From contig JAROBA010000031.1 in the NCBI GenBank assembly GCA_029432815.1, positions 1 through 64,000 on the forward strand: a stretch of 64,000 nucleotides of DNA, in the 5' to 3' direction. Below, piece by piece: positions 4,881 through 40,070 of the stretch; position 1 is the first letter of the stretch, and every line of letters starts with the position of its first letter. The stretch is from Pontiellaceae bacterium B1224. GTDB lineage: Bacteria > Verrucomicrobiota > Kiritimatiellia > Kiritimatiellales > Pontiellaceae. The notes below the pieces were generated by a model. It did no database searches. It saw only the letters and a list, made by a program, of their open reading frames with translations, and was not told the origin of the DNA. Made by a program: the position numbers and the translations under genes.

Positions 4881-7061
4881 ATGAGTAAATATATGCAACC
4901 GAGAATCAGCGATGCCGAAGCGCTGGACATGCTTCAGAATATGTCGACCCCGGAGCTGATGGCCCGTGCCGATGCGATCCGCCGCGAGCGCCATGGCAAT
5001 AAGACCTACTATGTGCACAGCCACAATCTGAATCCGACGAACCTCTGCGTGGTTGAGTGCAATCTATGTTCTTTCTGGCGGCCTGAAGGTGCGCCGGATG
5101 CATACATTACTTCGCTGGAAGATGCCCGCAAGAATCTGGAACGCGCGCAAAACTGGAATCTGACCGATCTGCATATTGTGGGCGGTATGATTCCTGAGCT
5201 GGACATGAAATACTACGAAGATCTCTTTTCGCTCTCCCGCGAAATGCTGCCCGGTGTTTTGCTGCAGGGAATGACGGCGGTTGAAATTCACTGGATTGCA
5301 GGAAACGCCGGCATTTCCATCAAAGAGTGTCTCCAGCGGTTGCAGGCCTGTGGATTCGGTTCGATTTCCGGCGGCGGCGCTGAAATTTTCCATGGTGAAA
5401 TCCGTAAAAAAATTGCGACCACTAAAATTCTGGCGGAGCATTGGCTGGATGTTCACCGCGAAGCGCATGGACTGGGTATTCCCACCAATGCTACGATGCT
5501 GTTCGGGCATATCGAAGAAGACTGGCATCTGATTGATCACCTTTCCAGGCTTCGGAACCTGCAGGATGAAACCGGCGGATTCCAGGCGGCGATCCCATTG
5601 CCGTTCCAAACCAATGGAACTGCGCTGGGGCTGAAATATGGTCCGTCCGGCGATCGTCAGGTCCGCGTGGCCGCCGTCACCCGCATCTATCTCGATAACT
5701 TTCCGCATGTCCGCATGCTGGTGAACTATATGGACCGCAAACTTCTGGGCGTTCTGACGCACAGCGGCGTGGACGATATTGGCGGAACCAGCCTCGAAGA
5801 ACGCATTGCCAAAGAGGGCGGGGCGCCGCAGAGCCAGAAATTCTTTACGGCAGAGGAGATGGAAGCATTTCTTTCCAACCTCGGCCACACCCCGGTGCTG
5901 ACCAACAGCGTGTATGCACAAATCGAAGGGCAGCCCGATGTGAATGCCATTCCAGAAGCGCCTGTGGTTTCCAGTCGTTGGAAAACGATTCTGGATCGGG
6001 TGGAAGCCGGCGAACGCATTAATTCAGAAGATGCCGCGATTATCTATGAAGAAGCCCCGTTCCAGGAATTGGGGCGTGTGGCCGACATCTGTCGTCGTCG
6101 GGCTGTTCCCGGCGATCTGGCCACCTATGTGTTTGATAAGAATCTGAACACGACCAACGTCTGCGTGGTGGACTGCAAATTCTGCGCGTTTTACACGAAG
6201 CAGGAAAAAGACAATGCCTATGTGAAAAGCCCCGAAGAGATTGTGGAGCAGGTGAAGGCTGCGGCCGAAGCCGGGGCCACCCAGATTCTGATTCAGGGCG
6301 GGCTGCATCCAGAACTTAAACTGGATTATTACGAAGCGTGTCTGTCGGGCATCCGCGATAATGTCGATATCTGGATTCATTCGCTGTCGCCGACCGAAAT
6401 TGAGTTTATGGCAGCGATGGAGCACATTTCGATTAAAGAATGCCTCCAGCGTTTGAAAGATGCCGGCCTGCAATCGCTGCCCGGCGGCGGAGCCGAAATT
6501 CTGAACGACGATATCCGCAAACGCATCAGCCCGAAAAAGACCCGCTCGAAAGCATGGCTGGATCTGATGGAAGACGCGCATTCGATCGGCCTGAAAACGA
6601 CGGCAACCATGGTATACGGCTTCGGCGAAACCTATGAGCAGCGCATTGAGCATTTCATGAAAGTCCGCGATCTGCAGGATCGCACCGGCGGGTTCACCGC
6701 CTTTATCCCCTGGAGCTTTTCGCCGGATATGACCGACCTGGATTGCCCGCGTCTGCAGAATGGCGTGGACTACCTGCGCCTGATTGCGATGGCCCGCATC
6801 ATTCTCGACAACGTGCCGCACCTGCAGGCCGGTTGGGTAACCGAAGGCCCGGATGTTTCGCAGCTGGCGCTGCAGTTCGGTGCCGATGATTACGGCGGGG
6901 TATTGATGACGGAAGAAGTGGTGAGCGCCACGGGCGTTGACTACAAAGTCGACGAAGACCTCGTGATTAATCTGATCCGCGAAGCCGGTTGGGTTCCATC
7001 GCAGCGAACCACGCAGTACGACACAATTAAAATCTTCGACGAAGAAACTTTAGGAGCGTGA
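4881..7061 (+). CDS. mqnE/mqnC: Fused aminofutalosine synthase / cyclic dehypoxanthinyl futalosine synthase (MqnE-MqnC)
   Basis: 726 residues with two complete radical-SAM enzymes in tandem, both of the futalosine pathway of menaquinone synthesis. The first half (about 1-365) has the [4Fe-4S] motif CVVECNLC (Cys 56, 60, 63) after NPTNL, then ISGGGAEIF and MLFGHIEE, and corresponds to MqnE, which joins the chorismate-derived enolpyruvate ether and SAM into aminofutalosine. The second (about 390-726) has CVVDCKFCAFY (Cys 428, 432, 435), LIQGGLHPELKLDYYE, LPGGGAEIL and RKRISPKK, typical of MqnC, which cyclises dehypoxanthine futalosine. The ATG at 4881 is preferred over an upstream GTG at 4854 because GAGG at 4869-4872 sits eight bases before it. 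The two enzymes are normally separate genes of about 370 residues. No other mqn gene is in the window. Confidence 0.92.
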   Translation: MSKYMQPRISDAEALDMLQNMSTPELMARADAIRRERHGNKTYYVHSHNLNPTNLCVVECNLCSFWRPEGAPDAYITSLEDARKNLERAQNWNLTDLHIVGGMIPELDMKYYEDLFSLSREMLPGVLLQGMTAVEIHWIAGNAGISIKECLQRLQACGFGSISGGGAEIFHGEIRKKIATTKILAEHWLDVHREAHGLGIPTNATMLFGHIEEDWHLIDHLSRLRNLQDETGGFQAAIPLPFQTNGTALGLKYGPSGDRQVRVAAVTRIYLDNFPHVRMLVNYMDRKLLGVLTHSGVDDIGGTSLEERIAKEGGAPQSQKFFTAEEMEAFLSNLGHTPVLTNSVYAQIEGQPDVNAIPEAPVVSSRWKTILDRVEAGERINSEDAAIIYEEAPFQELGRVADICRRRAVPGDLATYVFDKNLNTTNVCVVDCKFCAFYTKQEKDNAYVKSPEEIVEQVKAAAEAGATQILIQGGLHPELKLDYYEACLSGIRDNVDIWIHSLSPTEIEFMAAMEHISIKECLQRLKDAGLQSLPGGGAEILNDDIRKRISPKKTRSKAWLDLMEDAHSIGLKTTATMVYGFGETYEQRIEHFMKVRDLQDRTGGFTAFIPWSFSPDMTDLDCPRLQNGVDYLRLIAMARIILDNVPHLQAGWVTEGPDVSQLALQFGADDYGGVLMTEEVVSATGVDYKVDEDLVINLIREAGWVPSQRTTQYDTIKIFDEETLGA

Positions 7062-18908: not shown

Positions 18909-19177
18909 CTATCTAGCCGATAGCCCCGCCGTTCGGGCCTGCAAACACACGCTCTATCGTATCGTTGGTATTTGATGTATGAAATGCTAACGCTTTTTGT
19001 AGTATTTCCTAATGTTCCACTAACACAAAAGTCGTCTGATTTTCCGTGTTGAAGGGAAGCCTTCTGTTGAGGCGAAGATTTAATTTAATCGGACCCAACC
19101 ACTTTGATGCTTCAGCAGAGCGGTCCGGAAACCGGACGGATAAAAAAGACAAGACCGCCGGTTCCAATCCCTGAGAT
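18909..19177 (+). repeat. Duplicated TonB-operon leader, copy A
   Basis: Matches copy B at 19801-20066. The 5' half is clearly diverged, while the last ~110 bases, from GTTGAGGCGAAGATT through CGGACCCAACCACTTTGA to CCGGTTCCAATCCCTGAGA, are nearly identical. It contains the conserved bulged hairpin 19127-19139 / 19155-19165. The copy leads directly into the amputated ORF at 19202. Confidence 0.88.
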
Positions 19178-19201
19178 ACCTGAATACGAATAGGAGATCA
19201 G

Positions 19202-19309
19202 ATGAATACTATAGGATTCTATTACACCCAACGCCGGAACCGGTTCGAGCGCATTGCCATTTTTATCGCTTCAGTCGTTGCCGTAGTGTTGATGTTTGTA
19301 TTTGCCTAA
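19202..19309 (+). pseudogene. Amputated N-terminus of a second TtpC-like (MotA/TolQ/ExbB) gene
   Basis: 35 codons, MNTIGFYYTQRRNRFERIA followed by IFIASVVAVVLMFVFA and a stop. The first 16 residues match the start of the TtpC-like protein at 27051 (MNDIGFFYTQRRNRLERMM) with few changes, and the upstream context TAGGAGATCAG-ATG matches TAGGACACCAG-ATG there. The likeness ends after the signal peptide; the coiled-coil and membrane parts are gone. Together with copy A of the leader this is what remains of a duplicated TonB operon from which about 7 kb between the leader and this gene, and everything behind it, has been lost. It might still be expressed as a tiny membrane peptide, but a relic is more likely. 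Confidence 0.82.
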
Positions 19310-19389
19310 GCCCCGTTTGAAATACAGTTGTAGATTGAGTTCTAAACGAAGAATGCCGGACGCCATGCGGCGGGGCGACGACTCGCCGG

Positions 19390-19411
19390 GCCGGCATTGG
19401 CCAATGCCGGC
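19390..19411. repeat. 22-bp perfect palindrome
   Basis: Half-site GCCGGCATTGG followed immediately by its reverse complement. It lies in the gene-free 19310-19800 stretch. Possible hairpin or protein-binding site; no partner copy was found in the window. Confidence 0.55.
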
Positions 19412-19800
19412 GATGCAGTATCCGTCCATGAGCGCATTGTGATTCGCATCTCATCTGCGGAGGGTGATTCTGGCGCTGAATCCACACCGGCCCGTTCCGT
19501 ATGGCACATAGTTAAGAAGGTTTGATAGGAATACGGATAGGTTTGAAATCGCGCTGTCCTGCTTTACCGAACCAATATTTAATGGGCACTTAACTAAGTG
19601 CCATTCGTGGCCGTATCCTGAATTCGAAGATAACCCCCGCCAGCAGCCAGAGACAGCGATGCATCCCATCCGCCCGCTAACAGGTGAGAATCCGAGCACT
19701 ACGAAATCGTGGCCATAAAGAAGCGCGAAAGGCACGAAAACTTGTTGCTCTGGCCTTTGGTGCTTCTTGTGCCTAAACTCCCAGTGTGTAGATGTTATAG
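19412..19800. other. Gene-free stretch between the two leader copies
   Basis: No coding ORF. Holds an 18-bp near-perfect palindrome (GGCACTTA-AC-TAAGTGCC, 19585-19602) and, at about 19716-19785, a stretch containing AAAGAAGCGCGAAAGGCACG and CCTTTGGTGCTTCTTGTGCC, which resembles widespread short intergenic repeats. Confidence 0.55.
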
Positions 19801-20131
19801 CTATCGCTGGCAGTTCTGCCGTTCAGGCCTGCAAACATTCTCCTAACGCATTGCTTACGAATTCTTCATGGAATGCCAATGGCTTCCATAGCAACTTCTA
19901 ATGTTTGGCTAACACGAAACCCGTCTTATTTGCCGTGTCGAAGGGAATCCTTTCTGTTGAGGCGAAGATTAATTTAATCGGACCCAACCACTTTGACGTT
20001 TCAACAGAGCGGGCCGGAAACCGGACGGATAAAAAAGAAAAGACCGCCGGTTCCAATCCCTGAGACACTCGATTTTTGTCACGCTGGTGACTGATTTCAC
20101 TAACGGACCAAACACTAAAGGAGAATATTCA
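19801..20131 (+). promoter_or_regulatory. TonB-operon leader, copy B, with conserved bulged hairpin
   Basis: The 331 bases before the first gene of the TonB operon contain leader copy B (19801-20066). A hairpin can form between GGAAACCGGACGG (20016-20028) and CCGCCGGTTCC (20044-20054), eleven pairs with two bulged A, around a purine-rich loop (ATAAAAAAGAAAAGA); copy A keeps it. It is not followed by a T-run, so it is not a simple terminator. Downstream, GTCAC-GCTG-GTGAC (about 20078-20091) is a further inverted repeat unique to this copy, and AAGGAG precedes the start at 20132. The leader may act as a cis-regulatory RNA or carry the promoter. Confidence 0.6.
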
Positions 20132-21868
20132 ATGAAAAAGCAGTTTATCATTGCAACAGCCCTGATGAGTGCCGGTGTTGCCGCTCAGGCGGCTAACATC
20201 GACATCACATCCGACATCACCAATTCGGTGACCTGGACACAAGACAACGTGTATAACCTGACGCAGCAGATTTTTGTTCGTTCGGGTGCAACTCTCACCA
20301 TTAAAGAGGGCACCTTGATTCAAAGCACATCGGGCGTCGGCGGATCGCTGGCCGTTTCGCGTGGTGCAAAAATTTATGTTGAAGGAACGCAGGATGAGCC
20401 GGTCATCATGACCTCCACGGCTGATGATCTGGTTAATTGGCACGAAGGTGCTAACGAATGGGGCAACCTGACGATTATGGGCCGCGGCCTCGTGGGTGCT
20501 TATACTGATCTGGAACGTGACCGCCCGGGGAATACCCCCACTCCGACCGGCTTGAACGAGCTTCAGATGGAAGGCTTGGTTGATGACAGTGTGAATGACA
20601 CCTATTACGGTGGTAACGACGACAATGACGACAGCGGATCAATCAGCTTCCTGTCGCTGCGTTATGGTGGAAAGGTAGTCGGCCTGGATAATGAGCTGAA
20701 CGGTCTTTCACTGGGAGCGATCGGTCGCGATACGGATATTCATCACGTTGAAGTGATGAACAACGTTGATGACGGCATTGAAATCTGGGGCGGCACGGTT
20801 AATCTGCGCTATGTGAATATCTGGAACGTTGGTGATGACAGCCTGGATGTGGATCAGGGATGGCGCGGAAAAGCTCAGTTCGGTCTGATCGTTCAGGGCT
20901 ATTCCACCGATGCCAGCCAGGGTTCAGGCCTCGGCGACAACTGCTTTGAAACGGACGGTGCGGAAGATTCCGATGCACAGCCGGTTACAACCACAAAGAT
21001 TGCCAACTTCACGGTAATCGGAAATCCGCTTTCCGGTGATGGCGGAACCACGTGGCGTGATAACGCCCGTGTTCAGTATCACAACTGCATCTTCATGGAT
21101 ATCGGCGAAGAAACTGTTCGCTTTGATGGCGATGACGGTGATGGTGCCCAGGGTTATGGATATAATGGAACCCTGAGCTGGCTGGACACATGGACTACTG
21201 CTTACACGAACTATTCCGCTGTAAACTGGGTGTCTGATGTTTATGCCAACCAGGCTGATGCCTATCCGGTTCAGACCTCCGGCTATCTGGCAGAAATTAC
21301 TGGCTGCCTGTTCAACTACTGCAATGAGTCTGATGGAGATGAGTATATTCTGACCCTCGGCGTTTTGAACGGAACCGCCGGTGCCTGGGCCAGCAATCCA
21401 GCATTGGATAACGTGGTTACAACCACCGACCCGATCGTAAGTTTCGCACGTGGAGAAACCGTTACTATTGGTGGCAAAAGCGTTGCTCTGGTAACGAACA
21501 TCAATCCTTGCGCTGCGAACGATGCGCTTACGGTTGCAAATCCCGAAGTTACGGATGGATTCTATGTTTCTGCTCCGTACCGCGGTGGTTTTTCAGGAAA
21601 CTACAACTGGCTCGCCGGTTGGACCTCGGTTGACGCCTATGGCATGACGGATACCAGCATGAATACCGCTTCACCGGCAGCAAGCATCAACCCGGGTGTT
21701 GTGGTTTCTTTTGATTCCGCATTCGGTGTGGAATATGAAATTGAAGGTGCGGACAGTGCAGAAGGTCCTTGGAACTATGTGGCCACCGTGGTGGGCAATG
21801 GATCCACCATCAACTATGGCGATGCCGACCTGCAGGCCGCTGGCTTCTATCGTGTGGTTACCAAATAA
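20132..21868 (+). CDS. Secreted beta-helix surface protein, first gene of the TonB operon
   Basis: 578 residues from the ATG at 20132 (AAGGAG eight bases upstream). Signal peptide with cleavage after AQA (residue ~20). The mature part opens with a segment known from large families of surface proteins in Bacteroidota and marine gammaproteobacteria: TWTQDNVYNLTQQIFVRSG, then TLTIKEGTLIQS, SRGAKIYVEGTQDEPVIMTS and NEWGNLTIMG, which build a right-handed beta-helix. Later turns are rich in D, N and G (YYGGNDDNDDSGS, DGIEIWGG, DGDDGDG), possibly calcium-binding. The last ~70 residues form a separate beta domain (NPGVVVSFDSAFGVEYEIEGADS). The protein is acidic and exported; its position suggests that it presents or binds the substrate of the receptor encoded two genes downstream. 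Confidence 0.8.
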   Translation: MKKQFIIATALMSAGVAAQAANIDITSDITNSVTWTQDNVYNLTQQIFVRSGATLTIKEGTLIQSTSGVGGSLAVSRGAKIYVEGTQDEPVIMTSTADDLVNWHEGANEWGNLTIMGRGLVGAYTDLERDRPGNTPTPTGLNELQMEGLVDDSVNDTYYGGNDDNDDSGSISFLSLRYGGKVVGLDNELNGLSLGAIGRDTDIHHVEVMNNVDDGIEIWGGTVNLRYVNIWNVGDDSLDVDQGWRGKAQFGLIVQGYSTDASQGSGLGDNCFETDGAEDSDAQPVTTTKIANFTVIGNPLSGDGGTTWRDNARVQYHNCIFMDIGEETVRFDGDDGDGAQGYGYNGTLSWLDTWTTAYTNYSAVNWVSDVYANQADAYPVQTSGYLAEITGCLFNYCNESDGDEYILTLGVLNGTAGAWASNPALDNVVTTTDPIVSFARGETVTIGGKSVALVTNINPCAANDALTVANPEVTDGFYVSAPYRGGFSGNYNWLAGWTSVDAYGMTDTSMNTASPAASINPGVVVSFDSAFGVEYEIEGADSAEGPWNYVATVVGNGSTINYGDADLQAAGFYRVVTK

Positions 21869-21964: not shown

Positions 21965-23170
21965 ATGCGGTTGATTAAAAAAATATTATGGTTAGGTTCG
22001 TTTGCTGTGCTGACGACGCAAGGCATGGAAACGAATAAAAGGGTTGAGCTCGTCGATGAGCCGTTGGCCGATTTTCAGATCGTGTTGCTGAACCAATCCT
22101 TTGAACTGGCAACGGCCATTCCGCTTGCGCCGCACATAAAAGACCACGCGCGTTTTCAGCAGCGTGCCGCTGAGATTGCGTTGGAATTGAATCAGCCAAC
22201 GTTGGCCTTGAAATACGCAGAAGAGATTCCGAATTGGCGTCAAGGTGCAGCCTTGGCTGACTATGCCAATTACAGCATTGCCCAGGGGATAACCAATCAG
22301 TTGGTTCCGCTGCTGAACCTTGCCCAGATTTCGGCTGATAGCGCAGAACAGGAATGGCGGCGCGACACCGTGCTGCTGAAGCTTTCCAAAGCCTGGAAGT
22401 CGTTAGGGAATACAAACGAACTGAATAAAGTAAACCGGGTGCTGAATGCATCCGAACAGGGATCGGCCGAACTGAGCAATGCGCAGGTTTGTGCCCCGGA
22501 TGAATTTAATGATTATGTTTCCAGGCTGAATGCGCAGCTTGCCGTGGGAGGGCTGGAACTCCAACAGACGGCACTCGCATCCTATACCCTTCTTTATAAA
22601 CAATTTTTTGACGATGAAACGCGCCGTGATTGGATTGAGCAATCGATTATTTCGCGCTGGAATAAGCTGCCGTATTTGAATCGGATTGATTTGCTTGTGA
22701 CGATGACCGAAACAGCGCAGCAGGCCGGTGATCTTGAAACCGCACAACACCTTGCTGATGTGGCGCAGGCCATGGTGGATGAGTCGGTTTGGCCGACGGA
22801 ATATCACGTGCAGGTACTCGCCAAAATGGCTGATCTGAGAATGATGTGTGAGCAGCCGGAGCTTGCGGCCGAGGAGCTGCAGAAAGCAGTTGGAATCTTT
22901 TCAGAAAAAAGAGCGGAGATCATTGATATCTTCCGTACGGAAGCGTTGCTACCGGTTGCGGAGGCCTATACCCGGTTGGGCGACCTTTCCAATGCCCGGA
23001 AGATCTATGCGCTTGCCGTAGAGGAAGCCGTGGTGAACAGCAACTCCCGTCCCCGTGCTGAAGATTTGTGCCAGATTGGTTTGTCCATGGCGCAGTGTGA
23101 AGTCGAGCCCGATGCCGCGCTTTGGAATCGGATGGATGAAATTAAAGCAGGACTGGGCGACCCATGGTAA
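21965..23170 (+). CDS. Exported helical-repeat (TPR-like) protein
   Basis: 401 residues from ATG 21965. The first ~20 residues are a signal-like segment (RLIKKILWLGSFAVLTTQG). The rest is alpha-helical with repeated A-x-x-Y-A and E-x-A-x-x-L patterns (for example LALKYAEEIPNWRQGAALADYA and GDLETAQHLADVAQAMV and ARKIYALAVEEAV), as in TPR or Sel1-like solenoids, though no textbook TPR motif repeats exactly. The stop codon overlaps the start of the receptor gene (ATGGTAA), so the two are translationally coupled. A protein-binding role in the periplasm next to the TonB machinery is inferred. Palindrome copies at 22384 and 22987 fall inside the coding region. Confidence 0.75.
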   Translation: MRLIKKILWLGSFAVLTTQGMETNKRVELVDEPLADFQIVLLNQSFELATAIPLAPHIKDHARFQQRAAEIALELNQPTLALKYAEEIPNWRQGAALADYANYSIAQGITNQLVPLLNLAQISADSAEQEWRRDTVLLKLSKAWKSLGNTNELNKVNRVLNASEQGSAELSNAQVCAPDEFNDYVSRLNAQLAVGGLELQQTALASYTLLYKQFFDDETRRDWIEQSIISRWNKLPYLNRIDLLVTMTETAQQAGDLETAQHLADVAQAMVDESVWPTEYHVQVLAKMADLRMMCEQPELAAEELQKAVGIFSEKRAEIIDIFRTEALLPVAEAYTRLGDLSNARKIYALAVEEAVVNSNSRPRAEDLCQIGLSMAQCEVEPDAALWNRMDEIKAGLGDPW

Positions 23171-26100
23171 GCCGAAAACTTTTTCGAACGTTAGTTGTTG
23201 GTCTCCTTTTTTCCGCGACTGCGGTATTCGCCCAGGTCGGCGGGATTCGCGGGGTGGTGATCGATTCCGATTTCGAAGTGCCGCTGCCGGGCGTGAAGGT
23301 GGTCATATCTGAAACCGGTCAGGAAACGGTTTCGAATGATTCCGGCAGCTACAATCTGCAGAATGTTGAACCCGGTGCATATACACTGATGTTCAGCAAA
23401 GGGGGCTATACCCGCTTCACTCAATCGGGTGTTGTGGTTGTGTCCGGTCAGCTGAAAGATGTTGAAGCTAAAATGGCCGGTGAATATGAAGAAATGGATG
23501 AGCTCGTGGTTCGCGACATCCAGATGGGCGGTGCCTCCGAAGTCGGTTTGCTGAACCTCCGCTTGGAAAACGTGGCAATGATGGATTCCGTGGGCTCGGA
23601 TCTGATGGGGCAGGCCGGTGCTTCGGATGCCGCGCAGGCCTTGAGCCTGGTGCCGGGCACGACGGTACAGGATGGAAAATATGCCGTGGTCCGCGGGTTG
23701 CCGGACCGTTATGTCAGTTCGCAGATGAATAGCGTGGTGCTCCCTTCCGCCGACCCGGACAAACGCGCTGTGCAGTTGGATCAGTTTCCCAGCGATTTGA
23801 TTGAAAGCATGCAGGTGACTAAAACATTCACCCCGAATCAGCAGGGGGATGCTTCCGGTGGTGCGGTGAATATTGTGCTTAAGAGTATGCCGAAAGAACC
23901 CGTGCTGAAGTTCAAGCTTGGAACAAAGTATAAAACAACCCTTCCGGGTGACGCCGATTTTCTGACGTACACCGGGGTCAATATGGATTACTGGGGACAG
24001 CTGGAGGAGGCGGATAATCCGCAACCGTCCGGTACCACCTGGAACGGTGCGGTTGGGACCACCAAGGGCGATGCTCCGCCGATGTATAACTGGTCGCTGA
24101 CGGCCGGAGATACGTTCAAGGTTGCCGACAATGTGAATGTTTCAGCACTTGGAAACTTCTATTACAAATCGGATGCGTCGTACATCGGGGGAGCCACCGA
24201 TGACAAATGGTGGTTCAGAGATGGCGAGTATGTTCCGATTCATTCTGAAGAGGATCCGTTGTCAACCCTGCCTTACTCTCCTGCCGGGAAACAGTTTAAG
24301 ACCAGCCTGTATGATGTGGATCAGAGTACTGAGGAAATTCAATGGGGCGGTCTCGGTTCCATGGGGGTGGAAGTTGGCCGGCAGCAGGTTTCACTTTTGT
24401 ATATGGAAACGCATGTGGCCGAAAAAATATCTACACTGGCTGAAGATACGGCTGGTAAGGATTTTTACGTTACGTCGCAGGTGCCTGGCTACGATCCGCT
24501 GGCCCCGGGGGACAGTGGTGACTATGAGGATGCGGCTCCCTATCGGCGGAGCCAGACGCTTCAGTATGTGGAACGCGACACCTCGACCCTGCAGTTACAC
24601 GGAGAGCACGTGCTCCCGTTTCCAGAGTTTGGAAAAGAAGATTTTCTATGGTTTCTGGAACCGGAACTGGATTGGACGATTGCCAGTAGTGATTCCTACC
24701 TGAATAGTCCGGATAAACGTCTGTTCGGTTCCCTTTGGAAGCCGGGCTTCACGGAGATTACACCCGGCGGGCGAAATGGTCCCCAAACCAATACGGTTGC
24801 GCAAAGCTATTATCAGGATAAGCCCCCCGTGCAAACGCTGGGCAATGTGCAGCGGATCTGGGAAACCATTGATGAAACCAGCGATCAGTTTTTCCTGAAC
24901 GGTAGTTTGCCCTTTGAGCAGTGGAGTGGCGATAAGGGTGCTTTGAAACTGGGTTTATTTAATGATGAGGTTCGGCGTACTTACACGAAGGATTCGTATA
25001 GTAATACTAAAGAAGTAGGGAGTCCGGAAATCAATCCGACGACCGGACCCTCATTGCCGTGGAGCGAATTCTGGACCGATTATTACCCGACTGCGAATGA
25101 TGTCATGTTTGCTTCAACAATTGATGCAGGATATGAAGGGACCCAGGATATTTCGGCCTGGTACTACATGCTGGAGCTTCCGATTTCTTCTCAGTTCACC
25201 TTCATTGGTGGAGCACGCTACGAAAGTACTGATATATCGACCACAATTGTGGATCAGGAGGCGGATGTTTATTGGGTTAAGCCGGGCGGTACCGGTTTGT
25301 CCAAACTGTTGCCGGGGGAAGCGGATGTTGATTATCAGGAAGATGATGTTTTACCTTCACTTGGATTGGAAATTAAACCGCTTGATTCCGTAACCATTCG
25401 TCTGGCCTATGCTGAAACCGTGGCCCGTCAGACCTTCAAAGAGCTCACCCCGCTTCAGCAGCAGGAATATCTGGGTGCAGAAGTTTTTGTTGGGAATCCG
25501 AATCTGACGATGAGTAATCTGAAAAACTACGACCTGCGCGTGGATTATTCTCCCTATCCCGGCGGCCTGATTTCCGGTTCCTGGTTTTACAAAACAATTG
25601 AAGATCCGATCGAATACACTCAAGGCTACGCGGACAATGTCGGAAGCTATATTACACCGGTTAACTATCCGGAAGGAGAATTGACCGGCGTTGAGTTGGA
25701 GTTTCGCCAGCAGTTGGGGCACTTCTGGCAATCGCTCGAAGGCCTGACATTTGGAGCCAATGCCACCTTCATTCAGTCGGAGGTCACATTGGATGATGCG
25801 GATGCCGCCCGGCTGGAAGCCGCCGGCTACCCCGGAGCTACACGGGATATGCTCAATACGCCGGATCGTTTGTTCAATGTTAACCTGACCTACGATATTG
25901 CAAAATTCGGTACTCAGTTGGGGCTCTTTTATTTTGTGAAGGGCGATACGCTGGTTGCCGGCGCGAATTCGGCCATCGGATACACTCCGGATGTTTATGC
26001 CACTGAGTTTGGTGTGCTCAATTTTTCGGTTTCGCAGAAGCTGGGGAACCACATGAGATTAACTTTTAAAGCCAAGAATTTGACGGACCCGGAAATTCAG

Positions 26101-26196
26101 GAAGTCTATCGTTCGCCCTATACCGGAGAAGATCAGGTGAAGACCTCCTATCAACGCGGACTGGAATATTCCCTGGATCTGACCACCTTCTGGTAA
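23164..26196 (+). CDS. TonB-dependent outer-membrane receptor with CarboxypepD-like N-terminal domain
   Basis: 1010 residues. Signal peptide to about residue 23 (AVFA). Residues ~25-105 form a carboxypeptidase-regulatory-like domain (GIRGVVIDSDFEVPLPGVKVVIS, SGSYNLQNVEPGAYTLMFSK GGY). A TonB-box-like stretch EEMDELVVRD follows, then the plug with VVRGLPDRYVSSQMN, PSADPDKRAVQLDQFPSDLIESMQVTKTFTPNQQGDASGG split over its two conserved blocks. The remaining ~750 residues are barrel strands, ending in the aromatic LDLTTFW. The layout is that of Oar-type and catecholate/glycan receptors of PVC bacteria. The substrate is unknown. It lies between a TPR-like gene and the complete energy-coupling set (DUF3450, TtpC-like, ExbB, ExbD, TonB). 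Confidence 0.93.
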   Translation: MVSRKLFRTLVVGLLFSATAVFAQVGGIRGVVIDSDFEVPLPGVKVVISETGQETVSNDSGSYNLQNVEPGAYTLMFSKGGYTRFTQSGVVVVSGQLKDVEAKMAGEYEEMDELVVRDIQMGGASEVGLLNLRLENVAMMDSVGSDLMGQAGASDAAQALSLVPGTTVQDGKYAVVRGLPDRYVSSQMNSVVLPSADPDKRAVQLDQFPSDLIESMQVTKTFTPNQQGDASGGAVNIVLKSMPKEPVLKFKLGTKYKTTLPGDADFLTYTGVNMDYWGQLEEADNPQPSGTTWNGAVGTTKGDAPPMYNWSLTAGDTFKVADNVNVSALGNFYYKSDASYIGGATDDKWWFRDGEYVPIHSEEDPLSTLPYSPAGKQFKTSLYDVDQSTEEIQWGGLGSMGVEVGRQQVSLLYMETHVAEKISTLAEDTAGKDFYVTSQVPGYDPLAPGDSGDYEDAAPYRRSQTLQYVERDTSTLQLHGEHVLPFPEFGKEDFLWFLEPELDWTIASSDSYLNSPDKRLFGSLWKPGFTEITPGGRNGPQTNTVAQSYYQDKPPVQTLGNVQRIWETIDETSDQFFLNGSLPFEQWSGDKGALKLGLFNDEVRRTYTKDSYSNTKEVGSPEINPTTGPSLPWSEFWTDYYPTANDVMFASTIDAGYEGTQDISAWYYMLELPISSQFTFIGGARYESTDISTTIVDQEADVYWVKPGGTGLSKLLPGEADVDYQEDDVLPSLGLEIKPLDSVTIRLAYAETVARQTFKELTPLQQQEYLGAEVFVGNPNLTMSNLKNYDLRVDYSPYPGGLISGSWFYKTIEDPIEYTQGYADNVGSYITPVNYPEGELTGVELEFRQQLGHFWQSLEGLTFGANATFIQSEVTLDDADAARLEAAGYPGATRDMLNTPDRLFNVNLTYDIAKFGTQLGLFYFVKGDTLVAGANSAIGYTPDVYATEFGVLNFSVSQKLGNHMRLTFKAKNLTDPEIQEVYRSPYTGEDQVKTSYQRGLEYSLDLTTFW

Positions 26197-26263: not shown

Positions 26264-27013
26264 ATGAAAAAACAACTGTTGATAATTTTAGCAATTTCCG
26301 GTGTCGCTTTCGGAGCGCAGGGCGATGAGCTGGATCTGACCCGCGAGACCCTTTCGAAATGGGTGGAAACCCGTAAACTGATCTCTGAAGAAAAGCAAAC
26401 ATGGGAGCTCGAACGCGAAATTCTGGGCGACCGTATTGATCTGGTTCGGAGCGAGCGTGATACGCTCAACAGCAAGATCTATGAAACCCAGTCGCTGATC
26501 ACCGACGCAGATAAAAAGCGTGAGGATTTGGTTAAGGAAAAGGATGAGCTTAAAAACGCATCCGCAACATTGGTTAACCGAATCTTTACATTGGAGCGCG
26601 AGGTGCTGGCCCTGCTGCTAACCCTGCCGGAACCGGTCCAGGATCGCATTAAACCGTTGAGCCAACGCATTCCGAAAACGCAGGAAACCGATCTCTCTCT
26701 ATCTGAGCGCTACCAGAATGTGATCGGCATTATTAACGACCTTAACAAAGGGGCCGGTGAAATTACGGTGCTCAGCGAAGTGAAAACGCTCAAAGATGGA
26801 ACAACGGCTGAAGTGCAGACGCTCTATATCGGCTATTCCGCCGGTTATTCCTGCAACAACAACGGCGATGTGGCCTTCATCGGCAGACCGACTTCCAATG
26901 GTTGGAAGTGGGAGCAGAACAACGAAATTGCCCAGACGGTAGCCGATTCCATTTCCATTTTGAAAAATGAAAAAGTGGCGGCATTCCTGCCGTTGCCCGT
27001 CAGTATCGACTAA
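26264..27013 (+). CDS. DUF3450 periplasmic coiled-coil protein
   Basis: 249 residues. Signal peptide MKKQLLIILAISGVAFGAQ (cleavage near residue 18-20). Residues ~30-115 are a long coiled coil (KLISEEKQTWELEREIL, then LVRSERDTLNSKIYETQSLI). The C-terminal globular part contains EVQTLYIGYSAGYSCNNNGDVAFIGRP, the characteristic block of DUF3450, a family found almost only in TonB2-type operons. In Vibrio-like systems this protein accompanies TtpC and TonB2. It would act in the periplasm as part of the energy-transfer complex. A palindrome copy at 26893 gives the codons SNGWK. The gene is followed after 37 bases by the TtpC-like gene. Confidence 0.88.
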   Translation: MKKQLLIILAISGVAFGAQGDELDLTRETLSKWVETRKLISEEKQTWELEREILGDRIDLVRSERDTLNSKIYETQSLITDADKKREDLVKEKDELKNASATLVNRIFTLEREVLALLLTLPEPVQDRIKPLSQRIPKTQETDLSLSERYQNVIGIINDLNKGAGEITVLSEVKTLKDGTTAEVQTLYIGYSAGYSCNNNGDVAFIGRPTSNGWKWEQNNEIAQTVADSISILKNEKVAAFLPLPVSID

Positions 27014-27050
27014 CCCGTTTCAGCAACCTTTTGAACAGATAGGACACCAG

Positions 27051-28523
27051 ATGAACGATATAGGATTCTTTTATACTCAGCGCCGAAACCGATTAGAGCG
27101 CATGATGATATTCATCGCTTCTCTACTCGCCGTGTTGACCATGCGCACGTTTGCCGATTCGCAGACTGAAATGCAGCAGAAGCTCGAAGCCAGCCTGCAG
27201 GAACTTTCCAATGTTCGGAAAAACATTGCCACCGAAAAACTGCCGATGGCGAAAGGACTGAATGCCCTGGAAGACGAAGTGCTGGATGTTCGGCTCGAGC
27301 ACCAGAAGATTATGCGTCAGCTCGATAGTCGCAATCTGGACCTCAATAATCTGCGGGCGGATATCAAGGCGCGCAAGGGCGAGAAAAACTATATCGCCAA
27401 CCTGCTCGGCGAATATACCCGCAATTTTGAAACCCGCCTGCATATCGCCGAGCTGGATCAATATGATGATGTGGTTCAGTCGGCCATTCTGGCTCCGGAC
27501 AACACCAACCTTTCCGATCAGGAAATTTTCATTGAGCAGACCGCTCTGGTGGAGGCCTCGATTGGCCGGCTGCAGGCTGTGGTCGGCGGTGCGGCCTTCT
27601 CCGGAACAGCGGCCGGCGAAGACGGACTGGTTAAGCAGGGCGAATTTTTGCTGATCGGACCTATTGCACTGTTTACTGCGAACGACGGCTCGCTTTCCGG
27701 CATTGCCGAGCAGCGGCTCGGTTCGCTGGAACCGACGGTGCTGCCCTTTGCCAATCCAGCGAATGCCGTACTGATTGCTTCCACTGTGGCAGCCAGAGGC
27801 GGTTTGTTCCCATTCGATCCAAGCCTTGGAAATGCACGCAAGATTGAAGAGACCAAGGAAACCTTTAAGGAGCATATCCAGAAGGGCGGCATGGTGGCGT
27901 ACGTCATTCTCGGTATGTTCGGGCTCTGCATCGTGATTGCGGTCATCAAATGGATTCAGCTTTCTCTGATTCCGAAACCGTCCGAAAAAACGGTTCAGCC
28001 GGTACTTCGGGCCATGCTTGTGAACGACCATGTGAAGGCTGCTTCGGAGATTAAAAAGATTAAAGGCCCGACGGGAGCCATGCTCTCCGTGGGTATTGAA
28101 CATATCGATGAACCGAAAGATCTGGTGGAAGAAGTGATGTATGAAGAAATGCTCACCACCCGCATGAAGGTCACCCGGCTTACACCGGTGCTGAATATCT
28201 GTGCTTCCACCGCTCCGCTGATGGGACTGTTGGGTACCGTGACCGGTATCATCAACACCTTCAAACTGATTACCGTCTTCGGATCCGGCGACGTGAAGAC
28301 GCTTTCCGGCGGTATTTCCGAAGCGCTCATTACCACCGAACTCGGTTTGGTGGTGGCGATCTCCGCTTTGGTGCTGAGTGCCTTCCTGACCCGCAAGGCC
28401 AAGAGCATTACCGACAACATGGAACAGATTGCCATTCTCTTCATGAACCGCGCCACGCGCTCCGTGGAACAAGCCCCGGAAGCGGAAGAGGTTGTTGCTG
28501 ATCTCGAACCTGTACCTGCGTAA
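27051..28523 (+). CDS. TtpC-like MotA/TolQ/ExbB proton-channel family protein
   Basis: 490 residues from ATG 27051; longer frames upstream are not coding. After the peculiar start MNDIGFFYTQRRNRLERMM, a hydrophobic segment ends in TFA (about residue 36), probably a signal peptide. Residues ~40-120 form a coiled coil (KLEASLQELSNVRKNIATEKL), followed by a periplasmic domain. The last 200 residues are a TolQ/ExbB channel: KGGMVAYVILGMFGLCIVIAVIKW, then TRLTPVLNICASTAPLMGLLGTVTGIINTF and GGISEALITTELGLVVAISALVLSAF, with the conserved helix-2 and helix-3 motifs. Such TtpC proteins stabilise or extend the TonB2 complex in Vibrio. The start is duplicated in the relic at 19202. Confidence 0.9.
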   Translation: MNDIGFFYTQRRNRLERMMIFIASLLAVLTMRTFADSQTEMQQKLEASLQELSNVRKNIATEKLPMAKGLNALEDEVLDVRLEHQKIMRQLDSRNLDLNNLRADIKARKGEKNYIANLLGEYTRNFETRLHIAELDQYDDVVQSAILAPDNTNLSDQEIFIEQTALVEASIGRLQAVVGGAAFSGTAAGEDGLVKQGEFLLIGPIALFTANDGSLSGIAEQRLGSLEPTVLPFANPANAVLIASTVAARGGLFPFDPSLGNARKIEETKETFKEHIQKGGMVAYVILGMFGLCIVIAVIKWIQLSLIPKPSEKTVQPVLRAMLVNDHVKAASEIKKIKGPTGAMLSVGIEHIDEPKDLVEEVMYEEMLTTRMKVTRLTPVLNICASTAPLMGLLGTVTGIINTFKLITVFGSGDVKTLSGGISEALITTELGLVVAISALVLSAFLTRKAKSITDNMEQIAILFMNRATRSVEQAPEAEEVVADLEPVPA

Positions 28524-28557
28524 TCAATCACGCTTCACGTTTCACGGATCACGCACT

Positions 28558-29184
28558 ATGGAAGAGTCGAAAACAATTTGGGAACAGGCCCTTGCCATCT
28601 GGGCATCCGGCGGGTGGGCCATGATTGCCCTGGCAGTAGATGCTCTGATTATTTTCTACATGGGATCCAGTATCTTTTACCGCATTCGGGAAAAGGGCTA
28701 TCTCTATGTTACGGAAAAGAAAATGAAACGCTGGGTCAAAGAGCCGGAGAAAGGCCGTGGGCCGGTTGGGCGCATGATTCGCTTTGTGATGAGTGCGAGC
28801 AATCTGAAGGAGATTAATATCTTCTTCGATGAGCTGAACCAAACGGAGATTGCGCCGATCAATCGCGATCTCAAAGTGATGCAGACCTGCGTGAGCATTG
28901 CACCGCTGCTGGGCTTGCTCGGCACGGTGACGGGCATGCTGGCAACCTTCGCCGCGCTGGCCACAGGATCGGGTGGCGACAAAACAATGGGTATGGTGGC
29001 TTCCGGTATTTCGGAAGCTCTCATTACCACCGAAACCGGTTTGCTCATTGCACTGCCGGGGTTGATTTTTCAATACAAACTGGGACGTGAACACCAGCAG
29101 TATAAAGCCTTTCTGGCCCACCTGCACACGGTCTGTTCACAACGAATTTTTAAGGATAGCCAGGCAACCGCCGAGGCCGCATGA
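28558..29184 (+). CDS. exbB: ExbB proton-channel subunit
   Basis: 208 residues from ATG 28558. Three membrane helices: WASGGWAMIALAVDALIIFYMGSSI at residues ~12-38, then LGLLGTVTGMLATFAAL and SEALITTETGLLIALPGLIFQYKLG. These two blocks hold the conserved MGLLGTVxGM and EALxTTxxGLxxAIP signatures of ExbB/TolQ. The protein forms the inner-membrane proton channel with ExbD and drives TonB. It follows the TtpC-like gene after 34 bases that resemble a dispersed repeat (CACGCTTCACGTTTCACGG). Two proteins of the ExbB family in one operon is the usual arrangement of TonB2-type systems. Confidence 0.92.
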   Translation: MEESKTIWEQALAIWASGGWAMIALAVDALIIFYMGSSIFYRIREKGYLYVTEKKMKRWVKEPEKGRGPVGRMIRFVMSASNLKEINIFFDELNQTEIAPINRDLKVMQTCVSIAPLLGLLGTVTGMLATFAALATGSGGDKTMGMVASGISEALITTETGLLIALPGLIFQYKLGREHQQYKAFLAHLHTVCSQRIFKDSQATAEAA

Positions 29185-29352
29185 ACATTTTAGAATATAG
29201 ATTTTCGAGTTTCGATTTATGGAACTCCCTCCTTCGCTCTTCGAGCTTCGGCGGACAGGCAGGCGGCGTTGGCCTTTTAACGGATGCGGTCGCAGACCCG
29301 AAAATCACCAATCAAAAATCACCAATCAAAATTTTTTTGCGGAGCAAATAAA
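29185..29352. repeat. Repeat patches inside the TonB operon
   Basis: Between exbB and exbD there are 168 bases without a gene: a TTCGAGTTTCGATTTATGG patch, CTCCTTCGCTCTTCGAGC and CTTCGGCGGACAGGCAGGCGG (29226-29265), and tandem AATCACCAATCAAAA (about 29306-29333). They are typical of dispersed filler sequences and relatives of the patches at 3958 and 4130. Confidence 0.6.
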
Positions 29353-29763
29353 ATGGGACGTTTTAAAAGTAGCGCGAACGACGATACCGAAGCAGTAGTG
29401 GATATTTCCCCGCTGATCGACTGCGTCTTCATTCTTCTTATCTTTTTCATTGTTACCACCACGTTTGTGGAAGAGACCGGTGTTGAAGTCGATAAGCCTC
29501 AGGCGGCTTCCTCGGTCCAGCTGGAAAAAACCAGCATCATGATTGCCATCACCGCCAACGGCGAAGTTGTGTACGGCGGAAATGAAATCGGTATCAGCGG
29601 GATTCGTCCGCTGGTGAAACGAATGATGCAGAAGGAAGAAGTTCCGGTCATCATTCAGGCCGATGCCAGCGTCATGTCCGGCCTGATGGTGCGGGTGATC
29701 GACGAAGCCAAGCTGGCCGGTGCCGTGAAGGTGAGTATTGCCACGCTGAAGAATCAGGGGTAG
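29353..29763 (+). CDS. exbD: ExbD/TolR family protein
   Basis: 136 residues from ATG 29353, preceded by GGAG. The single membrane segment VVDISPLIDCVFILLIFFIVTTTF holds the essential membrane aspartate (D in PLID) and is preceded by the charged NDDTEA segment. The periplasmic part contains ITANGEVVYGG, VPVIIQADASVMSGLMVRVID and ends AGAVKVSIATLKNQ, as in ExbD. It works with ExbB to use the proton gradient. Four bases separate its stop from the GTG of tonB, so the two are translationally coupled. Confidence 0.92.
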   Translation: MGRFKSSANDDTEAVVDISPLIDCVFILLIFFIVTTTFVEETGVEVDKPQAASSVQLEKTSIMIAITANGEVVYGGNEIGISGIRPLVKRMMQKEEVPVIIQADASVMSGLMVRVIDEAKLAGAVKVSIATLKNQG

Positions 29764-29766
29764 ATC

Positions 29767-30426
29767 GTGTTGGAAACCCTTGCCAGATTATTTCGTACGC
29801 TGCTCCGGCAGTCCATCAGCATTGGGCTGGGACTCGGCCTGACATTCTGTTTTTTTATGCTGCTTCCCATCCTGCAGGTCATTACCCAGCCGCCGAGCAA
29901 AGACCTGACGATTCGCACCGTGGATGTGGCCAACGTGCCGCCGCCACCGCCGCCTCCGATGGAGGAGGAAGAAGAGCCGGAACCGGAAGAGCAACCGCCT
30001 CCGCCGCCAGCAGTCGATGCCCAGCCGCTGGATCTTTCGCAGCTGGAACTGGCGTTGAATCCCGGCGACGGGGGATTCGGTGGTGGTGATTTTTCCATTA
30101 ATCTGGATGGTGTTGCCGGGGGCGGTGATGATGTGGATGCCATCTTTTCGCTGTCGGACCTCGACCAGAAACCGCGCGTGGTGTATCAGCCTACGCCGAT
30201 CTATCCGCCCGAGCTGGCTCGTAAGGGAATGCAGGGAACGGTCTATGTGTTGTTTGTGGTCGATCAGAATGGCCGGCCGCAGAACCTGAAAGTCCAGAAG
30301 TCCACGCACCCGTCCTTTAATAATCCGGCGCTTAAAGCCGTGAAGCAGTGGAAATTTGAACCGGGCAAACGTAAAGGCAAAGCCGTCCAGTTCCGGATGC
30401 GCGTGCCGATCACTTTCCAAAAGTAG
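29767..30426 (+). CDS. tonB: TonB energy transducer
   Basis: 219 residues from a GTG at 29767. One inner-membrane anchor (about residues 17-38, SIGLGLGLTFCFFMLLPIL), then a proline/acidic linker (VPPPPPPPMEEEEEPEPEEQPPPPP) and a second flexible, glycine-rich stretch. The C-terminal domain from about residue 138 has QPTPIYPPELARKGMQGTVYVLFVVDQNG, followed by HPSFNNPALKAVKQWKFEPG and RVPITFQK, the standard TonB fold with the conserved YP and (V)xxWxF(x)P motifs. It spans the periplasm and contacts the receptor's TonB box. The end of the gene overlaps a near-copy of the 15-bp palindrome (30415). Confidence 0.95.
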   Translation: MLETLARLFRTLLRQSISIGLGLGLTFCFFMLLPILQVITQPPSKDLTIRTVDVANVPPPPPPPMEEEEEPEPEEQPPPPPAVDAQPLDLSQLELALNPGDGGFGGGDFSINLDGVAGGGDDVDAIFSLSDLDQKPRVVYQPTPIYPPELARKGMQGTVYVLFVVDQNGRPQNLKVQKSTHPSFNNPALKAVKQWKFEPGKRKGKAVQFRMRVPITFQK

Positions 30427-30435
30427 GAACGAATT

Positions 30436-31947
30436 ATGAAAATTGATACCAATAAATTTTTAACCACCCGCTTCGCTGGAGACTCGGAGACACTGAGATT
30501 CAATTTGTCTCCGTGCCTCCGTGCCTCCGTGGTGAGTTTTTTCTTATTCGCCGGTCATGTGCAGGCAGATGAAATGCAGGATATGATCAATGCTCTTCCA
30601 GACATGGGAAGCATCAGTAAGCCGCCGGAATCGATGGTGAATACGAAACCGAAAAAGATTCAGGATCTCTCCATCTGGGATGAGGAAGAATTTCAGAGAC
30701 AGTTCATGGCCAGTTATGGCGTCAATACTGATATTGAACCTAAACTGACAGCGGTTGAATATGAACAGATGCAGAAAATTCTCGATGCCATGTCGGAAGA
30801 CGACGACACGGCAAAAGCGGAGCAGTTGTTGTTGAAAAACTGCAAGGAATCCTCGTCGGCCACCTTTGAATTCACGCTGGCGAATATCTATTTCCAACAG
30901 GACAAACTCAACGAAGCGCTGTATCGGTATGATCAGGCGATTGAGCAGTTTCCGAACTTTCGCCGCGCGTATAAAAATGCCGGGCTGATTCACGTGCGTA
31001 ACGGCGATTTTAAAAAAGCTATTCCGTACCTCACCAAAACGATTGAACTCGGTGGGCATTCGGGCATCGCGTATGGCCTGCTGGGCTTTGCGTATGGTTC
31101 AACCGAAAATCAGCTCTGTGCGGAATCGGCCTATCGTCAGGCCATTCTGCTCGATCCTGACACCGTTGACTGGCAGCTGGGGCTGGCCCGCAGCTTCTTT
31201 AAACAGCAGAAGTTCGGCGATGCCGTCAGCCTGTGCAATATTCTGATCGAAAAGAATCCGGACAATGGCGATTTCTGGCTGCTGCAGGCCAATGCCTACC
31301 TCGGCTTGAAACAGCCGATGCGGGCCGCTGAAAACTATGAATATGTAAATGCGATGGGCCAGTCCACACCGGAGAGCATGACTATGCTGGGTGATGTCTA
31401 TGTGAATGAAGAGCGCTGGGATATGGCGGCCGATGCCTACCTCCGGGCCTTTGAACTGGACAATGGAGCTCAGCCGGACAAAGCCTTGCGTGCGGCCAAA
31501 ATTCTGGCGGGTCGTGGGTCGCTCCAACAATCAACACGTATATTGAACCGTGTGGCGGAAAGGAAAAGTTCGCTGGATAAGGCGGATCTGAAAGAACTGC
31601 TGAAGTTGCAGGCGCGGGTCGCTGTTGCAGAAGGCGGCGGAGACGATGTGGTGGTTATTCTCGAAGAAGTAGTTGAAGTAGATCCGCTGGATGGCGAAGC
31701 GCTGATTCTGCTGGCGCAGCACTATGGTCGCAATACTCCGGAAAAGGCGGTCTTCTATTATGAGCGTGCCGCCGGCATTGAAAAGTATGAAGCCGAAGCC
31801 AAACTCTACCACGGACAGCTCCTGGTCGGGCAGGCCAAGTATATTGATGCCCTTCCGCTGCTTCGCCGTGCCTATGAACTCAAACCCCGCTCCGACATCG
31901 AAGACTACCTGAAACAGGTCGAACGCATTTCCAAAACCCGCAGTTAA
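30436..31947 (+). CDS. Exported TPR protein, last gene of the TonB operon
   Basis: 503 residues, nine bases after tonB. From about residue 130, clear TPR units follow each other (ANIYFQQDKLNEALYRYDQAIEQFP, AGLIHVRNGDFKKAIPYLTKTIEL, AYGSTENQLCAESAYRQAILLDP, LGLARSFFKQQKFGDAVSLCNILIEKNP within the usual 34-residue period). TPR proteins conclude many TonB2/DUF3450 operons and are thought to hold the periplasmic complex together. The N-terminus is odd: residues ~10-36 are encoded by a dispersed repeat (about 30470-30535) whose translation (FNLSPCLRASVVSFFLFAGHVQA) yields the hydrophobic core of the signal peptide. No other start lies between this and the mature part, so the repeat is used as coding sequence. 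Confidence 0.85.
   Translation: MKIDTNKFLTTRFAGDSETLRFNLSPCLRASVVSFFLFAGHVQADEMQDMINALPDMGSISKPPESMVNTKPKKIQDLSIWDEEEFQRQFMASYGVNTDIEPKLTAVEYEQMQKILDAMSEDDDTAKAEQLLLKNCKESSSATFEFTLANIYFQQDKLNEALYRYDQAIEQFPNFRRAYKNAGLIHVRNGDFKKAIPYLTKTIELGGHSGIAYGLLGFAYGSTENQLCAESAYRQAILLDPDTVDWQLGLARSFFKQQKFGDAVSLCNILIEKNPDNGDFWLLQANAYLGLKQPMRAAENYEYVNAMGQSTPESMTMLGDVYVNEERWDMAADAYLRAFELDNGAQPDKALRAAKILAGRGSLQQSTRILNRVAERKSSLDKADLKELLKLQARVAVAEGGGDDVVVILEEVVEVDPLDGEALILLAQHYGRNTPEKAVFYYERAAGIEKYEAEAKLYHGQLLVGQAKYIDALPLLRRAYELKPRSDIEDYLKQVERISKTRS
30470..30535 (+). repeat. Dispersed CCTCCGTGCCTCCGTGG repeat used as signal-peptide coding sequence
   Basis: The stretch with GAGACTCGGAGACACTGAG and TCTCCGTGCCTCCGTGCC is a variant of a short repeat widespread between genes of environmental bacteria (cctccgtgcctccgtggtg type). 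Here it lies inside the first 35 codons of the TPR gene. Confidence 0.65.
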
Positions 31948-36555: not shown

Positions 36556-37521
36556 TCAGCGAGCGGAAACTTTCGATGGCCCGTCGAACGAACGGCCTTC
36601 AATGGTTTCCAGATGACAGCGAATGTAGCCGACGGGGCGCTTGTAGTTCATGCGCAATGGAATCATCGACCAGTCTGGCGAGTCTGCGGCCAGCTGAATC
36701 AGATTGGTTTCGCCGGAAGTCGATGCCAGTTCGGAGAACGGGACGCCCCACAGGGTCAGGTCGCCGGCTTCGCCTTCGGCTTCCGGAGCCAGGCTGATAT
36801 CCACCCGCAGTGCTTCCATTTTCCGGTCGATCGGTTTCACCTTAAACCGTTCCTTCGAACTCTCGGCCGCAAAGGGTTTCACTTCGCCGGCGACGTTAAA
36901 ATAAACCCGGAAGTCGGAATCGTGGGTAAGGGCGCCCTCGTGGCCGAGATAGACGTTCGACATGCGCCGGAGTGTGGCGGCAATGGCGTTGCTCTGCTGC
37001 AGCAGCTCGTCTGCGTTTTCCAGTTCTGTCGTTTTTTCGCCGGTCGTGTAGTCTTTCCGGAAATAGTCAATACCGCCTTCCTTGATGGAATAATAATCGA
37101 GATAGAATTCATGCTTTGGACCTTTGAAAAACGGGTTGAGATATTCGTCCGCATCTTTGAAATAGACCATGGTTTTCAGCTCCGGATTCGACATCACGGC
37201 CACCATTTTATTGTGGATTGAGATTCGGCCGCGGTCTTCTGTTCCGGGCTCGTCGCGGGTGTCGAACCGGACTTCGGAATAAAACGCAGGAACCGGTTCG
37301 CCGTCGTCGTTCAACCAGATGCCCTCAACGGAATAGGCACGGGCTTCGCCGATTCGAAGCAGTTTAATCCCGAAGACGTGGTAGGAAATCTGATAGGTCA
37401 GTTCAACGCCCTGCTTCGTGGCCTGAAAGCGTTGCTGGATGGCCTGTTTGACCGGCTCTGAACGGGCCGATGCGCAAAGCGCTAACAGTAGGCAAATCAC
37501 ACGCACACATAATCTTTGCAT
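36556..37521 (-). CDS. DUF3108 periplasmic protein
   Basis: 321 residues. Signal peptide (MQRLCVRVICLLLALCASARS). The body contains TYQISYHVFGIKLLRIGEARAYS near the N-terminus and a run of VYFKDADEYLNPFFKGPKHEFYLDYYSI, GIDYFRKDYTTG and LWGVPFSELAS. The opening (gE-x-L-x-Y-x-(v/i)-x-(w/f)-x-x-(l/i)-x-(v/i)-G) is that of the DUF3108 family, beta-rich envelope proteins of unknown function. Length is at the upper end of the family. It is convergent with the unknown exported protein and divergent to the GNAT gene. Confidence 0.78.
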   Translation of the reverse strand: MQRLCVRVICLLLALCASARSEPVKQAIQQRFQATKQGVELTYQISYHVFGIKLLRIGEARAYSVEGIWLNDDGEPVPAFYSEVRFDTRDEPGTEDRGRISIHNKMVAVMSNPELKTMVYFKDADEYLNPFFKGPKHEFYLDYYSIKEGGIDYFRKDYTTGEKTTELENADELLQQSNAIAATLRRMSNVYLGHEGALTHDSDFRVYFNVAGEVKPFAAESSKERFKVKPIDRKMEALRVDISLAPEAEGEAGDLTLWGVPFSELASTSGETNLIQLAADSPDWSMIPLRMNYKRPVGYIRCHLETIEGRSFDGPSKVSAR

Positions 37522-37578
37522 GGTTACTCTCCGTTAAGGAATTAAGACGTCAATCTATTCGATGGGTGTTAGTTAAAC

Positions 37579-40050: not shown

Positions 40051-40070
40051 GGAGCTATGGCACTTCGCCC

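Follow-up and report, generated by a model that had tools for sequence, protein, structure and literature searches.

A duplicated TonB-operon leader with a Pho-box-like promoter and a predicted, covarying three-way-junction RNA in a Pontiellaceae bacterium

The window analysed here, the first 64,000 nucleotides of contig JAROBA010000031.1 of Pontiellaceae bacterium B1224, is part of a draft genome assembly of 5.38 Mb (G000, contig C129). It carries an operon built around a TonB-dependent receptor and its energy-transducing proteins:

20132-21868, + strand: gene 1, secreted protein, probably a beta-helix (no Pfam match; AlphaFold2 pLDDT 72.7, mostly strands)
21965-23170, + strand: gene 2, conserved protein without a Pfam family (labelled TPRa)
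23164-26196, + strand: gene 3, TonB-dependent receptor (PF00593, PF13715, PF07715)
26264-27013, + strand: gene 4, DUF3450 protein, TtpB-like (PF11932)
27051-28523, + strand: gene 5, TtpC-like MotA/TolQ/ExbB protein (PF01618), parent of the fragment described below
28558-31947, + strand: genes 6-9, ExbB, ExbD, TonB and a TPR protein

The order of DUF3450, TtpC-like, ExbB, ExbD, TonB and final protein at 26264-31947 is that of the Vibrio-type TtpC TonB operon. Relatives of gene 1 adjoin TonB receptors, and the strand-rich AlphaFold2 model of its product gave no significant match in the PDB. Directly downstream of the operon, 32042-33754 encodes a protein of unknown family that is conserved in several relatives (62-76% identity).

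The surroundings of related operons point to phosphate. In one relative (G001) the C-terminal part of pstS lies directly upstream of the leader, and in four others (G023, G013, G024 and G004) pstS is found within roughly 8-20 kb of it. On the Alteromonas macleodii plasmid pBGP9 (L103, 1277-14783) phoB, phoR, a phosphate-binding protein, an oxygenase, a gene-1 relative, a TonB receptor, DUF3450, TtpC and ExbB follow one another consecutively, and a Pseudoalteromonas plasmid likewise places a gene-1 relative and a TonB receptor beside TtpC-like, ExbB, ExbD and TonB genes. Since the A. macleodii plasmid sets the operon beside phoB, phoR and pstS, it is probably a phosphate-scavenging operon, and the operon type appears to be phosphate-linked in Gammaproteobacteria as well. 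Near the operon, 38308-43864 encodes a DUF2334 protein, an LPG-synthase-like membrane protein and two group-1 glycosyltransferases, genes that may serve lipid remodelling under phosphate shortage.

The operon is preceded by two copies of a leader in the same orientation, copy A at 18928-19179 and copy B at 19818-20068, which lie 889-890 bp apart and are 81% identical; a search of the 5.38-Mb assembly for further copies returned A and B only. Copy B leads into gene 1, and copy A runs into a fragment of the ttpC-like gene, as the original prediction had described:

18928-18947, + strand: copy A upstream unit, a conserved 20-nt element, GCCGTTCGGGCCTGCAAACA (95% identity with 19818-19837)
18954-19030, + strand: copy A array of 11-bp repeats, distal portion decayed (20 A-derived changes at 55 distal sites)
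19009-19028, + strand: copy A promoter-proximal Pho box, intact, CTAATGTTCCACTAACACAA
19048-19177, + strand: copy A predicted three-way-junction RNA with stems P1, P2 and P3 (covariance model R1, 114.2 bits over 19048-19172)
19202-19309, + strand: 35-codon ORF, corresponding to the signal-peptide region of TtpC and provided with a Shine-Dalgarno sequence of its own (similar to 27051-27155)
19310-19342, + strand: ttpC remnant beyond the stop, with more in-frame stops
19818-19837, + strand: copy B upstream unit, GCCGTTCAGGCCTGCAAACA
19843-19919, + strand: copy B array of seven 11-bp Pho-box-like repeats (direct reading and alignment with relatives)
19898-19917, + strand: copy B promoter-proximal Pho box, CTAATGTTTGGCTAACACGA
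19937-20066, + strand: copy B predicted three-way-junction RNA with stems P1, P2 and P3 (R1, 118.9 bits over 19937-20061)
20078-20091, + strand: copy B hairpin GTCAC-GCTG-GTGAC, replacing the GCGG-GNRA-CCGC of relatives (direct reading and leader alignment)

The likeness of the two copies is unevenly distributed. Their final 100 nt are 94% identical, and in the central portion of the 5' part they differ at about half of the positions, in agreement with the claim that the 3' half is the better conserved one. By sequence the leader is made of two parts, a Pho-box-like promoter in the 5' half and a structured RNA in the 3' half.

The Pho boxes of PhoB/PhoP regulons are tandem 11-bp repeats. Copy B carries seven such units in succession (CTAACGCATTG, CTTACGAATTC, TTCATGGAATG, CCAATGGCTTC, CATAGCAACTT, CTAATGTTTGG, CTAACACGAAA), and pstS genes across the same genus bear the same 11-bp motif, with the pstS box of this genome reading CTAATGTTTCTCTAACACGT against CTAATGTTTGGCTAACACGA in copy B. 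When a matrix trained on 14 pstS promoters only was run over about 128,000 window positions, leader A ranked first (22.6 bits) and leader B second (21.0 bits); a single further window site exceeded 14 bits (20.7 bits at 37564, minus strand), the next one scoring 13.8. The same matrix yields sites of 24.3, 21.1 and 20.5 bits at the pst locus of this genome and no site above 13.1 bits at its two other DUF3450/TonB loci. Both leaders are accordingly read as carrying a promoter of the Pho type, with tandem direct repeats of 11 bp in common with the pst genes. The Pho boxes, the linkage to pstS and the plasmid gene order together make it very likely that the operon belongs to the phosphate-starvation response. 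The 20.7-bit Pho-box-like site (37545-37583, minus strand) lies directly upstream of an ORF at 36556-37521, whose product looks secreted and has no Pfam family.

For the 3' half, the same three-way junction was obtained from eleven leaders, most of them folded singly. P1 pairs GUCRAAGGG with CCCUUYGAC and in the predicted fold of copy B reaches 20066, P2 is long, and P3 pairs GGAA-A-CCGG-A-CGG with CCGCCGGUUCC. In an alignment of 14 sequences 92.9% of the cells are paired, a share that falls to 31-58% in controls in which the pairing was slid along, and 30 double-changed cells occur in 10 pairs, compared to 11.4 cells in shuffles; none of 500 shuffles matched the covariation score. The 3' half is thus a predicted three-way-junction RNA backed by covariation. 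That it works instead as DNA, for example as a protein-binding site, is very improbable, as a DNA site would not be expected to show the compensatory changes that occur in both arms of P2 and of P3 over the 14 sequences.

The covariance model detects the RNA in 12 of the 28 genomes of the genus, two of the matches (81.6 and 73.3 bits) being absent from training and both again upstream of the operon, and finds none outside the genus among the genomes of the order, the class and the phylum sample. One Chloroflexi contig fitted the DNA pattern, and the covariance model found nothing there; the RNA was likewise not found at the two other DUF3450/TonB loci of this genome. In Rfam no family scored above the gathering threshold and none at a relaxed threshold, weak matches to FinP and a snoRNA being attributable to chance. 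Comparison with the leaders of related TonB operons, which had been proposed as a check, places the RNA ahead of the same operon in every relative whose operon start was available, with one deletion (in G018, see below) as the exception. Most relatives have an extra GCGG-GNRA-CCGC hairpin upstream of the ribosome site, and both copies in this genome are without the canonical GNRA hairpin. Sequestration of the ribosome site by the 3' strand of P1, hinted at by the G027/G024 sequence, is not conserved; no conserved expression platform was found, the unpaired probability of the ribosome site ranging from 0.34 to 1.00 among the sequences and no intrinsic terminator following the RNA in this window. 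As there is no conserved ribosome-site switch, we do not claim a riboswitch.

How copy A arose can be read from the leader tree and from the fragment behind it. In the tree A and B are sisters with support 100, and the branch of A (0.229) is about six times longer than that of B (0.037). Over 83 nt the fragment aligns at 78% identity (E=6e-12) with the beginning of the ttpC-like gene (27051), including the Shine-Dalgarno stretch upstream of the ATG (ATAGGAGATCAG / ATAGGACACCAG), so the bases ahead of the start codon do share the homology, as had been noticed. It is closer to the ttpC of its own genome than is the ttpC of the nearest relative, and the other DUF3450 operons of the genome, considered as its source, gave no DNA match. 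The ORF begins with the ATG at 19202 and stops at 19307-19309. The homology proposed for its 35 codons was recovered, but it does not end at the stop: about 36 nt more, counted from codon 36, match at 20 of 36 positions, a level reached with a frequency of 1.3e-4 among random window positions. Because the homology runs on past the stop, the ORF is by descent the truncated signal-peptide part of ttpC and not a complete small gene; a conserved stand-alone gene made of leader and short ORF, which would have spoken against this history, did not appear, the fusion occurring in no other genome searched.

We therefore regard it as well supported that copy A goes back to an old duplication of the operon front, and that in this duplicate a deletion removed the stretch that joined the RNA to the ttpC start, the remainder being lost as well. 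This is in essence the history first suggested, in which the operon was duplicated and a deletion then reached from the leader to ttpC, with the correction that ttpC is the fifth gene and not the fourth. A parallel deletion exists in G018 (L051, C72, around 5720-5860), where about 13 codons of gene 1, still preceded by the leader, are fused to codon 356 of the gene following the operon; the reading of this orphan leader as a stand-alone RNA gene was rejected, as the locus is a whole-operon deletion. Two contig ends of G013 (L018, L024) that resembled a second tandem duplicate were set aside because of their few differences and their position at contig ends, and are likely strain variation at one locus.

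The leaders themselves have probably been swapped between lineages. The A/B pair shares 67-76% identity with the leaders of G023 and G013 and only 57-59% with that of G008, whose operon proteins are the nearest to those of the genome studied here (84-95%); with the leaders of G024 and G027, that of G008 shares 88-91% identity (leaders L020, L025 and L026). With a leader of one type and proteins of the other, G008 suggests that exchange took place.

Since the duplication, the parts of copy A have fared very differently. Changes on the A branch affect 20 of 55 distal promoter sites compared to 5 of 123 RNA sites (p=6e-8), 5 of 21 sites differ between A and B in the spacer, and 16 of 36 sites differ in the part of ttpC behind the stop. 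The seven substitutions that separate the stems of A and B preserve pairing, with 35 of the 35 pairs of B retained, and include a double change from U-G to G-U. The chance that all pairs survive random substitutions is 0.0003-0.006 for seven substitutions and 0.003-0.05 for the four or five that likely fell on A's own branch. With the array decayed, the RNA not, and the stem changes keeping the pairing, copy A is probably not just a relic, and its RNA looks as if held by selection after the amputation; as copy A is known from one genome, this retention is judged on few substitutions. The description of copy A as an amputated remnant fits the truncation and is probably half the story, given that the RNA was kept while other parts decayed.

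Selection and gene conversion had both been put forward for the 3' half, which turns out to code for the covarying RNA, and the pattern of conservation between A and B favours selection. Alternatively, copy A could be the relic of a dead operon whose RNA core resembles that of B only through gene conversion. Tandem copies less than 1 kb apart can convert one another, the ttpC part behind the stop is plainly decayed and the branch of A is, as noted, about sixfold that of B. However, kept and decayed blocks alternate along the copy (20-nt unit, distal repeats, proximal box, spacer, core), so that more than one conversion tract would be needed, and the stem differences that remain all preserve pairing, the U-G to G-U double change included; we consider such a relic rather unlikely. 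Somewhat different is the idea that through most of its existence copy A was part of an intact and functional second operon, which disappeared only recently, in which case the intact RNA would be uninformative on present use. The codons ahead of the stop differ from the genome's own ttpC with a third-position excess (changes of [8,6,18] by codon position), as expected of a long-working protein. Behind the stop, codons that are nearly invariant in relatives have changed at 16 of 36 sites without such an excess, a comparison over 36 nt only, which points to an old truncation and leaves a late loss quite improbable.

The same third-position excess (18/35 against 14/70 ahead of the stop, p=0.0015, and none behind it) bears on whether the 35-codon ORF is a working membrane microprotein for which the RNA was retained as leader. 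The ORF has a good Shine-Dalgarno sequence and a hydrophobic span, and some coding constraint may act on it, with much of the excess inherited from the ttpC lineage: the changes specific to the fragment alone amount to [4,4,9]. As fast variation is usual in signal-peptide regions and a search of the relatives found no homologous stand-alone ORF, we view a microprotein as unlikely.

A short trans-acting RNA or a tandem cis element, taken jointly, is the most likely explanation of copy A, ahead of a microprotein message and a conversion relic. For the former, copy A would be a leader cut from its operon and kept as a phosphate-induced trans RNA, a decoy for the ligand or protein bound by B; we hold this reading tentatively. 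To read-through in cis from A to B, which would provide tandem Pho promoters and tandem RNA domains, we give a similarly limited credence. A and B share their orientation, the core of B begins 889 nt downstream, and no intrinsic terminator was found in the window either downstream of the copy A RNA or between the copies. Against it stand a strong G+C-rich hairpin region between the copies, though no stabler than shuffles, and the tandem arrangement occurring in no relative. The hairpins of this region (19350-19415) are nested and without a T run.

Taking promoter, RNA and duplicate together, we consider it fairly probable that the locus combines a Pho promoter with an RNA leader, and that copy A, an old duplicate, has been retained and is most likely still transcribed, with a role in cis or in trans. 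Low phosphate would activate the leader promoter, the transcript would start at P1 or close to it, and its folded 5' end would adjust operon output, either through a bound ligand or protein or by protecting the message. The RNA would most likely be a cis-regulatory domain at the 5' terminus, resembling a riboswitch or binding a protein, and would act after the Pho switch-on, with leader B serving the TonB-dependent, probably phosphorus-scavenging operon. In copy A decay has struck the distal repeats and the ttpC part behind the stop and has left the proximal Pho box and the RNA fold almost untouched, which suggests that it is most likely still transcribed at low phosphate, giving an RNA of about 130 nt plus the 35-codon frame. 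Apart from the operon, its domain could work in trans as a decoy for its binder or in tandem with B.

Several aspects of this arrangement can be compared to known systems. Like the Pho boxes of PhoB/PhoP regulons, the leaders carry 11-bp phased repeats, a motif also present at pstS of the same genomes; the leader array, known here from sequence, is longer, with about seven units. The energy-transducing set is that of the Vibrio TonB2/TonB3 operons, which have the order ttpB-ttpC-exbB-exbD-tonB-ttpD (PMC6957404), the common members including DUF3450 (TtpB), TtpC and a final protein behind TonB. In contrast to the Vibrio TonB2 operon, which is regulated by iron through Fur (PMC6957404), the operon described here has a Pho-type promoter and genes 1-3 added. 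An exoprotein together with a TonB receptor in phosphate starvation is known from ElpS/Cc0171 of Caulobacter (PMC2996285), and in Flavobacterium the PUS III/IV clusters, part of the response to phosphate starvation, pair a pectin-lyase-like exoprotein with a TonB-dependent receptor (PMC8115612); genes 1 and 3 resemble both in arrangement, with an exoprotein beside or co-occurring with a TonB receptor.

The leader RNA is a structured leader RNA, a known kind, without an Rfam family. Similar to orphan riboswitch candidates and structured mRNA leaders (PMC2864571, PMC6429828), it is a covarying multi-stem RNA 5' of one conserved operon; in contrast to them it occurs in one genus only among the genomes searched, has a Pho-box array directly upstream, and shows no recognisable terminator or ribosome-site switch. 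It adds to the covarying structured RNAs a class that is missing from Rfam and belongs with a TonB operon linked to phosphate. The bacteria concerned are marine degraders of polysaccharides, in which RNA control would be layered over a Pho promoter, and promoter and RNA evolve at very different rates inside one sequence. The duplicate makes it possible to test how a leader acting in cis may turn into an independent RNA. EutX/Rli55, a riboswitch-containing sRNA, has a known aptamer together with a site that binds a response regulator, whereas any ligand or partner of copy A is hypothetical. As a leader-type domain that stands apart from its operon and acts in trans (PMC5821096), it is a precedent for a marooned leader such as copy A, which, if the trans reading is true, would be a natural case of a cis-regulatory leader becoming a small RNA.
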